From Jiella flava (GTDB taxonomy: Bacteria > Pseudomonadota > Alphaproteobacteria > Rhizobiales > Rhizobiaceae): a DNA stretch of 64,000 bases. The notes below the pieces were generated by a model. The model saw only the letters and a list, made by a program, of their open reading frames with translations, was not told where the DNA came from and did not search any database. The stretch covers positions 62,001-126,000 of the forward strand of contig NZ_JAFMPP010000010.1 in assembly GCF_017349315.1 (NCBI RefSeq), read 5' to 3'. Positions 35,100-39,113 of the stretch are shown here, in pieces. A program made the translations under genes and the position numbers. The first letter of the stretch is position 1; every line of letters starts with the position of its first letter.

Positions 35100-36464
35100 T
35101 CAGCTGGCGGCGAGCGCGCCGTCTTCGGCTTCGTCCTCGGCCATCAGCTCTTCCTTGGTCACCGTCTTATCGGTCACATCGACCTGACCGAGAAGATGAT
35201 CGACGACCTTCTCCTCGTAAAGCGGCGCCCGGATGCTCTGGATCGCTTCCGGGTTCTCCTGCAACATCTTCAGGATTTCCTGTTCCTGGCCCGGGAAGCG
35301 CTGCATCTGCTCGAAGACCGCGCGCTGCAGCTCCTCCTCGGCGACCTGCACGCCGGCCGTCTCGCCGATCTGCGACAGAACGAGCCCGAGACGCACCCGG
35401 CGTTCGGCGAGGCGGCGGTAATCCGCCCGAGCCTTTTCCTCGGTCGTCTCCTCATCCTCGAAGGTCTTGCCGTTGTCATTCAGCTCGCGCTGCACCTGGG
35501 TCCAGATGTTGTCGAACTCGGCTTCGACCAGCTTCTCGGGGAGCGGAAAGTCGTATTCCTTGTCGAGAGCGTCGAGCAGCTGGCGCTTGACCTTCTGGCG
35601 GGTGGCCATGCCGTACTGGCTCTGGATCTGATCGCGAACGATCTCCTGAAGCTTCTCCAGCGACTCCAGACCGAGCTTCTTGGCCATCTCGTCGTCGATC
35701 GCCGTCTCGGTCGGAGCCGACACCGCCTTGACGGTAACGTCGAACTTCGCCGCCTTACCGGCAAGATGATCTGCGCCGTAATCCTCTGGGAAGGTCACAT
35801 CGAGCGTCTTTTCGTCTCCGGCTTTGGCACCGACCAGTTGCTCCTCGAAGCCGGGGATAAAACGGCCGGAACCGATCACCAGATCGGCGCCCTCGGCCGA
35901 ACCGCCCTCGAAAGCCTCGCCGTCGATCTTGCCGACGAAATCAATGGTCAGCTTGTCGCCGGTTTCGGCAGCCCCGTCCTTTTCCTCGTATACGCGAGCG
36001 TTCTCCGCGATCCGCTCAACCTGCTCGGAGACCTCCGCCTCGGAGACCTCAACAATCGGCCGCTCGATCTTGATACCGCTAGTGTCCTTGATCTCGAACT
36101 GCGGCAGCGTCTCGTAGGAGACCGTGAACTTGAAGTCGCTCTGACCGTTCAAGACCTTGTCGGCCTCGGCCTCGTCCTCGGTCATGGCGATCTCGGGGCG
36201 CATGGCGGCGCGTTCGTTGCGCTCGGCCATCACCGACCCCGGCGTCTCGTTCAAGATCTCGTTGACGATCTCGGCCATCAGCGACTTGCCGTACATCTTG
36301 CGCAGATGATTGACAGGCACCTTGCCGGGACGGAAACCCTTCAGCTGCACCTTGTCCTTCGCCTCGAAGAGGCGGGTCTGAAGGCGCGCCTCAAGGTCCG
36401 AGGCGGGCACGACAATCTCGATCTCGCGCTTGAGGCCCTCGGCCTTGGTCTCCGTAACCTGCAT
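35100..36464 (-). CDS. tig: trigger factor (ribosome-bound chaperone)
   Basis: A 454-residue chaperone that binds at the ribosomal exit tunnel. The ribosome-binding N-domain carries the signature [18 protein letters not shown] (about 40-57). The FKBP-like peptidyl-prolyl isomerase domain spans about 160-245 ([37 protein letters not shown]). The long C-terminal helical chaperone arms end in an acidic tail ([12 protein letters not shown]). The start at 36464 gives the usual MQVTE N-terminus. Confidence 0.98.
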
Positions 36465-36554: not shown

Positions 36555-36639
36555 TGGTGCGGGTGGAGGGACTTGAACCCCCATGCCTCTCGGCGCTTGG
36601 ACCTAAACCAAGTGCGTCTGCCAATTCCGCCACACCCGC
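36555..36639 (-). tRNA. tRNA-Leu (anticodon UAG)
   Basis: Class II cloverleaf on the minus strand: acceptor GCGGGTG, D-arm GGCGGAATTGGCAGACGC, anticodon stem CTTGG/CCAAG with loop TTTAGGT (anticodon at 36603-36605), long variable arm CGCCGAGAGGCATG, T-arm GGGGTTCAAGTCCC. CCA is encoded (36555-36557). Confidence 0.97.
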
Positions 36640-36975
36640 AAGACGCGTCGGCCACACAGGTTGCGAAGCGCGGGCCTCTATATCACCGCGAATCCGACCA
36701 TGAAAGGGCAAAACCGCCTGTCTTGCGGCCGCATCGGCACCGATTGGTGCCCGGGATGCTCCAACACGCTATCGGCGAACGGCCCCCGCACTGCGCGGGA
36801 ATAAAGCATTCTTTATGACAAATTAACGACAGATCGCCTCAACGATTGACTCCAAGTCATTGTGATAACTGGGTCATTGCAAAGTTTTGCTGCGATGCAC
36901 AACTCGCATTGCAGCCATGCATTTCGCCGTCTAGCTCACCTCGTCGGCCGCGCATAGATTGCAATCACAACAGCG

Positions 36976-37003
36976 GGAAACGGACGTTGATCCGAAGCTC
37001 GTT
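36976..37003 (+). promoter_or_regulatory. possible stress-sigma (EcfG-like) promoter for the DUF1127-sRNA unit
   Basis: GGAAAC at 36976-36981 and CGTT at 37000-37003 are separated by 18 bases. The EcfG general-stress consensus is GGAAC-N16/17-CGTT, so this is a near match with one extra base on each count. It would start transcription about 25 bases before the DUF1127 ATG. Weak evidence; an RpoH-type promoter is the alternative expected from other species. Confidence 0.3.
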
Positions 37004-37035
37004 GGCTGAAGTTTGAATGATTAAGGACGTTCGTC

Positions 37036-37179
37036 ATGAACCTGGTTCGTTCGTACAAGACCTGGCGCCGTTACCGTGAGACGTTGAACGAGCTGAGCCG
37101 TCTGTCGCGTCGCGAGCTTGCCGATCTCGGCATTTCTCGCTCGGACATCCCGACGGTTGCTCGCCAGACCGTTCTCTAA
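37036..37179 (+). CDS. DUF1127 small protein (CcaF1-like), upstream of the sRNA array
   Basis: A 47-residue, Arg-rich protein. It starts MNLVRSYKTWRRYRETLNEL and continues with the DUF1127 signature SRLSRRELADLGISRSDIP. The ribosome site AAGGA is 8 bases upstream. DUF1127 proteins are small RNA-related or stress-related factors in alphaproteobacteria; the Rhodobacter member CcaF1 is co-transcribed with the CcsR sRNAs and has been reported to affect RNA processing. Here too three anti-Shine-Dalgarno hairpin units begin 43 bases after the stop, so the same operon logic is very likely. Confidence 0.9.
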   Translation: MNLVRSYKTWRRYRETLNELSRLSRRELADLGISRSDIPTVARQTVL

Positions 37180-37221
37180 GTCAAGGCGCTCGACGTCAGA
37201 GAATGCCACGGAAGTTTTGAG

Positions 37222-37354
37222 TTTCGTCGCGGCCATCCTCCTCCCAGGCCAAGACGGAAAACGGTCTGCCAACCTCCTCCCAACCGGCAGACCATCCTTT
37301 GAGCCCGCCGGGTCCTCCCCCCGGCGGGCGCATCGGGACCCAAGAGTTTCATAG
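37222..37354 (+). ncRNA. CcsR/'cuckoo'-type sRNA unit 1
   Basis: First copy of a 133-bp unit. Hairpin 1: GGCC (37231-37234) / GGCC (37247-37250) exposing ATCCTCCTCCCA, extended by GTC/GAC outside. Hairpin 2: GGTCTGCC (37263-37270) / GGCAGACC (37286-37293) with loop AACCTCCTCCCAACC. Hairpin 3: CCCGCCGG (37304-37311) / CCGGCGGG (37321-37328) with loop GTCCTCCCC. The CCTCCTCCC loops mimic the 16S anti-Shine-Dalgarno sequence, the hallmark of CcsR/cuckoo RNAs. No T-tract follows, so release of this unit would need RNA processing. Confidence 0.8.
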
Positions 37355-37487
37355 TTTCGTCGCGGCCATCCTCCTCCCAGGCCAAGACGGAAAACGGTCT
37401 GCCAACCTCCTCCCAACCGGCAGACCATCCTTTGAGCCCGCCGGGTCCTCCCCCCGGCGGGCACATCGGGATCCAAGAGTTTCACAG
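37355..37487 (+). ncRNA. CcsR/'cuckoo'-type sRNA unit 2
   Basis: Second 133-bp copy, differing from unit 1 at only a few bases near its end (GCACATCGGGATCC in place of GCGCATCGGGACCC, and CACAG for CATAG). The three hairpins recur at +133 (37364-37383, 37396-37426, 37437-37461) with the same anti-Shine-Dalgarno loops. Again there is no T-tract after hairpin 3. The near identity of units 1 and 2 indicates recent tandem duplication or gene conversion. Confidence 0.8.
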
Positions 37488-37600
37488 TTTCGCCGAGGCC
37501 ATCCTCCTCCCAGGCCAAAAGCGGAAAACGGTCTGCCAACCTCCTCCCAACCGGCAGACCATCCTTTGAACCCGCCGGGTCCTCCCCCCGGCGGGTTTTG
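37488..37600 (+). ncRNA. CcsR/'cuckoo'-type sRNA unit 3, with terminator
   Basis: Third copy, slightly diverged (TTTCGCCGAGG at the start, one extra base in AAAAGCGG) but with both CCTCCTCCC hairpins preserved; hairpin 2 is GGTCTGCC 37530-37537 / GGCAGACC 37553-37560. Hairpin 3 (37571-37595) is followed by TTTT, making it the transcript terminator. The DUF1127 gene and three units therefore look like one roughly 0.6-kb transcript ending here. Confidence 0.8.
37571..37600 (+). terminator. intrinsic terminator ending the DUF1127-sRNA transcript
   Basis: CCCGCCGG/CCGGCGGG stem of 8 bp with a nine-base loop, then GTTTTG. The equivalent hairpins of units 1 and 2 lack the T-tract, which makes this the only canonical terminator of the array. 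Confidence 0.8.
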
Positions 37601-37691
37601 CGTTTTCAAGGCGCTCGTCTCGCTCGAATTTGACAGCTTTAATGGCCGGAAGCCGGTTTCGTTTTCGCGCGCCGTCGCGTAGATTCCGGCC

Positions 37692-39113
37692 ATGTCAAAC
37701 AAAACCGTCCATGTCGTCGGCGGCGGCCTTGCTGGGTCGGAAGCCGCCTGGCAGCTTGCCCATGCCGGCATCCCCGTCATCCTTCACGAAATGCGCCCGC
37801 TGCGCGGCACCGAGGCCCACAAGACCGACGGTCTCGCGGAGCTGGTCTGCTCGAACTCGTTTCGCTCCGACGATGCGACGGCCAATGCCGTCGGCGTCCT
37901 GCACGCCGAGATGCGGCTTGCCGGTTCGCTGATCATGACGATGGCAGACCAACATCAGGTGCCGGCCGGTGGCGCCCTCGCCGTCGATCGCGAAGGGTTT
38001 TCGGCGGCCGTCTCGAAAGCGCTCGAGGATCACCCGCTGGTCACCATCGAGCGCGGGGAAGTCGACGGCCTGCCGCCGGAAGACTGGGGCACGACCATCG
38101 TCGCCACCGGGCCGCTCACCGCGCCAAAGCTCGCGGAAGCGATCGGCGCGGCCACCGGCCAGGATGCCCTCGCCTTCTTCGACGCCATCGCGCCGATCGT
38201 CCATTTCGATTCGATCGACATGGACAAGGCCTGGTTCCAATCGCGGTACGACAAGGTCGGGCCCGGCGGCACCGGCAAGGACTACATCAACTGCCCACTC
38301 GACCGCGAAACCTATGAGCGCTTTGTCGCGGCGCTTGTCGAAGGCGACCGGGCGGCGTTCAAAGAGTGGGAGGGCACGCCCTATTTCGACGGCTGTCTGC
38401 CGATCGAGGTGATGGCCGAGCGCGGCCCCGAGACCTTGCGGCACGGGCCGATGAAGCCGATGGGCCTGACCAACGCCCATCAGCCCGACATCAAACCCTA
38501 TGCCGTCGTCCAGCTGCGCCAGGACAATGCGCTCGGCACGCTCTACAACATGGTCGGCTTCCAGACGAAGCTGAAATACGGCGCGCAGGCCGAGATCTTC
38601 CGGATGATCCCGGGGCTGGAAAGTGCCGAATTCGCGCGGCTCGGCGGCCTGCATCGCAACACCTATCTGAATTCGCCGGTGCTCCTCGATGCGACGCTCA
38701 CCCTGAAGGCGCGCCCGCATCTGCGCTTTGCCGGCCAGATCACCGGCTGCGAAGGCTATGTCGAATCGGCCGCGGTCGGCTTGATGGCGGGACGCTTCAC
38801 AGCCGCGGAACGCCGGGGCCAATCGCTTCCTCCGCCGCCCCAGAGCACGGCGACCGGCGCGCTGATCGCCCATATCACCGGCGGCCATCTCGCCCGGCAG
38901 GACGATGGCGGCAAACGCTCGTTCCAGCCGATGAACGTCAATTTCGGCCTGTTTCCGCCGCTCGAGCCGGGCGCAATCCAGAAGCCCGAAGGCCAGAAGC
39001 GCTTTCGCGGCAAGGAAAAGGCGCTTGCCAAAAAGAACGCGCTCTCGCGCCGGGCCCTTGCCGACTTCGCCGCCTGGCTCGGCGAAAAGGATCTGCGCCA
39101 AGCGGCCGAGTAA
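37692..39113 (+). CDS. trmFO: methylenetetrahydrofolate--tRNA-(uracil-5-)-methyltransferase TrmFO
   Basis: Makes ribothymidine at U54 of tRNAs using methylene-THF and reduced FAD. The 473-residue protein begins with the FAD-binding [18 protein letters not shown]. The [18 protein letters not shown] block and [10 protein letters not shown] hold conserved cysteines, and [26 protein letters not shown] and [21 protein letters not shown] are family blocks. The C-terminal FGLFPPLE segment is also diagnostic. The gene starts 92 bases after the sRNA terminator. Confidence 0.97.

Follow-up and report, generated by a model that had tools for sequence, protein, structure and literature searches.

Cuckoo RNAs consist of two to four adjacent hairpins each. 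Alphaproteobacteria often carry short DUF1127 genes accompanied by CcsR-like sRNAs, an association that was named the CIN1 locus (Reinkensmeier and Giegerich 2015, as cited in PMC10253847). In Rhodobacter sphaeroides, the ccaF1-CcsR1-4 operon comprises a DUF1127 gene, several homologous RNAs with CCUCCUCCC loops, and one final terminator; its reported promoter is of the RpoHI/RpoHII type (PMC10253847). CcsR1-4 are reported to be matured by RNase E from the ccaF1 3′ region (PMC8625941), and CcaF1, the DUF1127 protein, binds RNA and affects this maturation (PMC10253847). For a DUF1127 protein of Salmonella, no RNA binding is reported in PMC12501420, and the same paper describes the conflict between RNA-binding and protein-binding roles of DUF1127 proteins.

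The ar14 family is typified by NfeR1 (Smr14C2) of Sinorhizobium meliloti, which is present in six copies (PMC7143759). NfeR1 is a separate transcript reported to silence named mRNAs through its loops, and most of the targets proposed for it are mRNAs of ABC transport (PMC10746234). The LysR-type regulator LsrB/VtlR is the reported activator of nfeR1 (PMC10746234), of Agrobacterium atu1667, which is taken as a DUF1127 gene from stated orthology (PMC7486931), and of Brucella DUF1127 genes (PMC12595884). At the locus analyzed here, these two regulon branches, the short DUF1127 proteins and the NfeR1-type sRNAs, apparently share one transcript.

Structured anti-Shine-Dalgarno units behind a DUF1127 gene

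The window, a stretch of 64,000 nucleotides, sits on contig C1 of its 4.16-Mb host genome. Our analysis confirmed that it contains, together with a short DUF1127 gene, an array of structured anti-Shine-Dalgarno sRNA units (Table 1). A first-pass annotation made from the sequence had read a 47-residue DUF1127 frame at this position, and Pfam bears this out. The gene and the array are co-oriented and lie between the trigger-factor/tRNA side and a trmFO-type gene, the product of which has its best named match in Aurantimonas sp. 22II-16-19i (89%), pointing to an Aurantimonas-like host. The genome contains four DUF1127 genes in total; the three others (C16:11288, C12:231466, and C4:24286) have weaker scores and longer open frames of 109–128 aa.

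Table 1. Features of the DUF1127-array locus, with positions in the window
Feature	Position	Strand	Evidence
Trigger-factor gene, upstream neighbor	35100–36464	-	
tRNA gene, upstream neighbor	36558–36639		
LsrB/VtlR-type LysR box, putative activator site	36890–36921	+	Match to box conserved upstream of relatives' DUF1127
Putative -10 hexamer CATAGA	36953–36958	+	Manual alignment of upstream sequences
Short DUF1127 protein gene, 47 aa	37036–37179	+	PF06568, E 2.2e-15
sRNA unit 1, no T-tract	37222–37354	+	TRF; ar14 54.3 bits; fold; T count
Hairpins of unit 1 (approximate)	37222–37259, 37263–37293, 37303–37329	+	
sRNA unit 2, no T-tract	37355–37487	+	TRF; ar14 56.6 bits; T count
sRNA unit 3, terminal T-tract	37488–37606	+	ar14 57.2 bits; fold; T count
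Third hairpin of unit 3, putative intrinsic terminator	37568–37598	+	T count; terminator scan
trmFO-type gene, downstream neighbor outside the unit, synteny anchor	37692–39113	+	Pfam GIDA 3.6e-96

TRF delimited a tandem array at 37220–37595 with a period of 133 bases, 2.8 copies, and 96% matches, in agreement with the 133-bp unit initially estimated at 2.85 copies. Each unit forms three hairpins, and a spacer of about 25 bases separates hairpin 3 from hairpin 1 of the next unit. The three hairpins and their anti-Shine-Dalgarno loops had been recognized before; one detail was corrected, as loops 1 to 3 hold CCUCCUCCC, CCUCCUCCC, and UCCUCCC, so that the full CCUCCUCCC is found only on hairpins 1 and 2. 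The unit folds reach z-scores of -4.97 (unit 1) and -5.15 (unit 3), with no equally stable fold in 200 shuffles, and the fold of 37180–37612 has a z-score of -6.97 (0 of 100 shuffles). Exact copies of the 9-mer CCTCCTCCC occur six times in the window, all inside the array and on the plus strand, compared with a mean of 0.59 and a maximum of 4 in 100 shuffles of the window; genome-wide, the 29 places with this motif, against 34 for its reversed control, amount to no enrichment, and it is unusual only by its clustering in the array.

Long minus-strand open reading frames (172 and 143 aa) run through the array, as might be expected if the repeat were protein-coding or mobile and its hairpins incidental. 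This explanation has next to no probability: the period is not divisible by three, BLAST places the array at a single position in its own genome, and both the covariation of the stems described below and the relation to ar14 argue against it.

An Rfam search at relaxed threshold related all three units to ar14 (RF02344), 1.6–4.5 bits short of the cut-off of 58.8, a relation hidden in the default search of the window, which returned two tRNAs only. The scores against CcsR1 (RF02791) were 25.3, 25.3, and 20.8 bits with a cut-off of 65.3, and membership in CcsR by Rfam was rejected. The original assignment to a CcsR/"cuckoo"-type array thus holds in kind, with anti-Shine-Dalgarno units behind a co-oriented DUF1127 gene, kept stems, and one end terminator, but the nearest Rfam family is ar14/NfeR1 (54–57 bits), not CcsR1. 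Upstream of trmFO, ar14 exceeds the Rfam cut-off in 12 of 13 relatives' loci, the remaining one (L007) having six units and none over the cut-off. Three out of 14 control genomes without relation to the host likewise gave ar14 matches at E up to 1, all under the cut-off, so that a weak ar14 match by itself means little. We infer that the units share common descent with ar14 and that the Rfam model is slightly narrow for this clade.

The units resemble ar14/NfeR1 in their three hairpins, C-rich anti-Shine-Dalgarno loops, length of about 120 nt, terminator-like third hairpin, and putative LsrB-type box, as well as in the trmFO neighborhood among relatives that pass the model. Unlike NfeR1, they are arranged three in tandem, lack internal T-tracts, have one box ahead of DUF1127 where each NfeR1-type gene has its own promoter, score just below the Rfam cut-off, and have a third loop shortened to UCCUCCC, whereas NfeR1 is described with CCUCCUCCC in all three loops (PMC10746234). 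As this third loop and the lack of a promoter for each unit depart from the strict published description of ar14, we refer to the units as ar14-like. With the ccaF1-CcsR1-4 operon they share the order of a DUF1127 gene, homologous CCUCCUCCC-loop RNAs, and a single final terminator; the units here have three hairpins, however, and those of Rhodobacter two, and the protein has 47 instead of 71 aa. The adjacent hairpins with C-rich loops beside a short DUF1127 gene likewise fit the description of the cuckoo RNA/CIN1 locus. As DUF1127 genes with CcsR-like RNAs have already been described under that name, the array looks like a repeated form of a known alphaproteobacterial regulator rather than a new type of system.

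Elsewhere in the genome, a further candidate sRNA stands alone at C3:43069–43153 on the minus strand and has two hairpins, one with a CCUCCUCCC loop and one of terminator type (L005:1501–1585; ar14 41.9 bits, under the cut-off; fold z -7.42). None of the four DUF1127 genes of the genome was seen beside it. A weaker two-hairpin candidate of similar appearance, with a loop containing CCUCCUCCU, lies on the minus strand at C3:2434–2527 (L006:1501–1594; ar14 31.1 bits; fold z -3.95).

T-tracts, gene order, and unit number among relatives

The ten bases past the GC core of the third hairpin contain one, two, and seven T in units 1, 2, and 3, respectively, which agrees with the initial observation of a T-tract on the last unit only. 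A terminator scan returned the third hairpin of unit 3 and a weaker candidate at 37644, two matches being not above chance (shuffle mean 1.4). We made the same T count for terminator-type hairpins across loci. Where the hairpins are spaced by no more than 200 bases, the 36 internal ones have a mean of 2.6 T (0–6) and the 21 last ones a mean of 7.0 (6–8). All 21 close-spaced rows have more T at the last unit than the mean of their internal ones. The same holds for all 18 rows that are left without L089, which repeats L008, and without L069 and L080, whose spacings of 64 and 71 bases probably do not represent whole units; since the species are related, these rows are not independent events. Copies with wider spacing have means of 6.3 T (2–9) for 15 internal and 7.8 for 13 last hairpins, and single terminator-type hairpins (n = 43) a mean of 7.3.

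Every spaced copy in the Rhizobium and Sinorhizobium loci retains its T-tract, a pattern that would suit units acting as independent sRNA genes, each with its own promoter, as reported for S. meliloti nfeR1. For the window, we regard this arrangement as highly improbable in view of the short spacers between units, the single box before DUF1127, and the absent internal T-tracts. Packed arrays, with low internal and high terminal T counts, instead look made for read-through, and spaced copies, with high counts throughout, for self-termination. Together with unit number, which ranges from one to six in relatives, the absence of internal T-tracts is what is notable about this locus; no ar14 arrays lacking internal T-tracts were described in the literature searched, which is weak evidence of absence, as the search covered few subscription papers.

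Gene order was surveyed at 80 named trmFO loci, using thresholds of our own choice and including some contigs that end early. A DUF1127 gene is followed by an array within 150 bases in 29 loci; 19 contain both in another order or at another distance, mostly with the array first and about 200–400 bases apart. DUF1127 without a detected array occurs in 20 loci, an array without DUF1127 in one, and neither in 11. The 20 loci without an array and the 19 with another order indicate that the coupling is not universal. The latter loci also bear on the idea that the hairpins form a structured 3′ untranslated region, which would stabilize or attenuate the DUF1127 mRNA and release no free sRNAs. Although the array begins only about 40 bases past the DUF1127 stop codon, such a role is quite improbable given these deviating arrangements, the conservation of loops in addition to stems, and the separate NfeR1 transcript of S. 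meliloti (PMC10746234).

Covariation was assessed on 22 units from the window and six relatives, leaving out the units of L092, L093, and L107. Both-sided changes with retained pairing were found in 14 of 26 consensus pairs, including six of eight in hairpin 2; the stems are thus retained under change, where drift without stems had been named at the outset as the outcome that would speak against structured RNAs. Paired cells amount to 98.2%, compared with 91.6% in shuffles (0 of 500 reaching 98.2%) and 37–49% when the partner is slid by one to three columns, controls that flatter the structure, since it was derived from this very alignment and the units share ancestry. Of the five measures, one, the number of pair types, is only weakly raised (24 versus 20.7 in shuffles; 15 of 500). 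These compensatory changes across seven genomes support the predicted stems.

The first two units of the window are 99% alike; for unit 3, the figure is 93%. In a tree, the window units form one clade (88/84) and the L007 units another (97/100), with units 1–3 of L088 sharing an unresolved fork with the L007 clade. The units of L008, L090, and L092 are intermixed, and the last unit of L088 groups, with weak support, with single-copy Aureimonas units. The nearest unit lies within the same genome for 17 of 23 units and elsewhere for six; 12 of the tree's 23 inner branches are open. The high homogenization proposed in the first-pass annotation therefore applies to the window and its nearest relatives but, given the mixed units, to only part of the clade, and we rejected it as a general rule.

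Hairpin counts yield three units in the window, six in L007, four each in L008 and L088, three each in L090, L092, and L107, and one each in L054 and L108. The array detector misses hairpins (L045, nine by another count versus two; L075, four versus no array). We tentatively raise the possibility that the array serves as a device by which dosage can evolve: an sRNA gene that followed DUF1127 and terminated itself may have become a read-through array by losing internal T-tracts, with unequal exchange homogenizing the units and changing their number (one to six in near relatives). The sRNA yield per transcript would then evolve fast, at constant promoter and protein, and a precursor that stays uncut, with its nine or more loops, may bind several mRNAs simultaneously. 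The copy-number series with its absent internal T-tracts makes the transition from single sRNA gene to processed array testable in close relatives. Separately, the relative G023 carries a long array of at least 15 hairpins that runs up to the edge of the sequence covered for that genome (L093, 32–700 on the trmFO strand). In Pleomorphomonas sp. (L080, 4540–4885), DUF1127 is followed by eight or nine irregularly ordered hairpins with CCTCC loops, a layout unlike the three-hairpin units of other loci.

Upstream box, proposed transcript, and candidate targets

The LysR-type box, CTGCGATGCACAACTCGCATTGCAGCCATGCA, lies 115–146 bases ahead of the DUF1127 start codon, occurs once in the window, and contains an exact TGCA-N6-GCAT at 36896–36909. 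Among 47 loci in which DUF1127 directly precedes an array, counting the window as well as L089, which repeats L008, 41 have an upstream match of at least 17/23 and six fall below this threshold. None of 940 shuffled windows reaches 17/23 (best 16); the consensus was drawn from some of the same loci, and the shuffles preserve base content only. A generic sigma-70 promoter scan gave no matches. From the start of the box to the -10-like hexamer, the distance is 57–58 bases in the window and the six relatives checked. With this hexamer, TGCA-N6-GCAT would fall near -69 to -56; it is the LsrB motif of S. meliloti, reported at about -72 to -57 of nfeR1 (PMC10746234). The Brucella VtlR motif CAATGCAGCCATGCA (PMC12595884) is matched at 14 of 15 positions, and a GCAT-N3-TG-N3-T motif in the box has one mismatch. 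The array had initially been taken for the same stress-RNA operon as in Rhodobacter, a view not borne out: the conserved upstream element here is a predicted LsrB/VtlR-type box, whereas the promoter reported there is of the RpoHI/RpoHII type (PMC10253847).

A candidate LsrB/VtlR gene, of LysR type, directly follows trxB on contig C46 (L183:3631–4572), and a gene behind trxB is the arrangement described for vtlR (PMC12595884). As in the LsrB/VtlR regulon of Rhizobiales, where a box precedes short DUF1127 genes (Brucella; atu1667) and nfeR1, the box here stands before a short DUF1127 gene; it differs in that the two gene types seem to share a single box, and in that no AbcR-type or other Rfam match was found near the trxB-linked LysR gene (within L183, E up to 0.1).

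Building on the parts and their order, the covarying stems, the absent internal T-tracts, the conserved box, and the relation to ar14, all read from the sequence, we infer transcript ends, activator, processing, and targets as follows. A LysR activator of the LsrB/VtlR kind would bind the box and drive transcription from a predicted start near 36965, yielding the DUF1127 mRNA followed by three ar14/NfeR1-like units. Lacking T-tracts, the terminator-like third hairpins of units 1 and 2 would let RNA polymerase read on and stop after unit 3. Linker cuts, by RNase E in analogy with ccaF1-CcsR, would release RNAs some 120 nt long. Through base pairing of their C-rich loops with ribosome-binding sites of the GGGAGGA type, these would keep mRNAs, most likely those of transport proteins, from being translated. 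We consider this model of one activated transcript, cut to mRNA-silencing RNAs, likely overall. The apparently shared transcript offers a handle on why DUF1127 and NfeR1-type genes travel together, and the locus bears on the dispute over what DUF1127 proteins act on, RNA or other proteins.

An array with nine loops per transcript, and up to 18 in L007, could also serve mainly as a decoy or scaffold, its C-rich loops binding Shine-Dalgarno sequences in bulk or a protein, such as Hfq or the DUF1127 product, with specific silencing being secondary. The reported RNA binding of CcaF1 and its effect on CcsR maturation (PMC10253847) would fit such a role, which is nevertheless rather unlikely, since NfeR1 is reported to silence named mRNAs via these loops (PMC10746234) and GGGAGGA sites are biased to solute-binding-protein genes. 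GGGAGGA-N4-11-ATG occurs at 96 sites in the genome, versus four for the reversed control. For Pfam comparison, 70 stretches for the 96 sites gave 68 distinct frames, of which 58 of at least 60 aa were kept; 30 of 71 control sites gave 28 frames, with 19 kept. Among the best 25 of 109 families in the 58 frames, solute-binding-protein and ABC permease families recur (Peripla_BP_4, 3; SBP_bac_1, 2; Peripla_BP_6, 2; NMT1, 2; BPD_transp_1, 2; BPD_transp_2, 1; families may overlap within one protein), and AMP-binding (3) is also frequent. None of these solute-binding or permease families is among the best 25 of 26 families in the 19 control frames, which include two non-ABC transporters.

A GGGAGGA site lies within 260 bases before the domain in 5 of 15 Peripla_BP_4 and 3 of 26 SBP_bac_1 cases, together 8 of 41, where 1.0–1.3 would be expected by chance at an estimated 3900 or 3000 genes; both families were picked after viewing the family list, and the 260-base limit lets in one match at 256. 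The control AAGGAGG-N2-9-ATG gave 0 of 41 (Fisher p 0.02 between the two site sets), the test being run on 95 of the 96 sites and on 70 of the 71 control sites because each set contained one overlapping duplicate. As NfeR1 candidates are mostly ABC transport mRNAs, this bias fits NfeR1-like targeting, short of proof. The motif GGGAGGAGG-N-ATG occurs at four sites: at two of them the frame that follows has 31 or 18 aa, the stretch of a third (C49:94646) yielded another frame, and one precedes a 333-aa ABC permease frame (L251).
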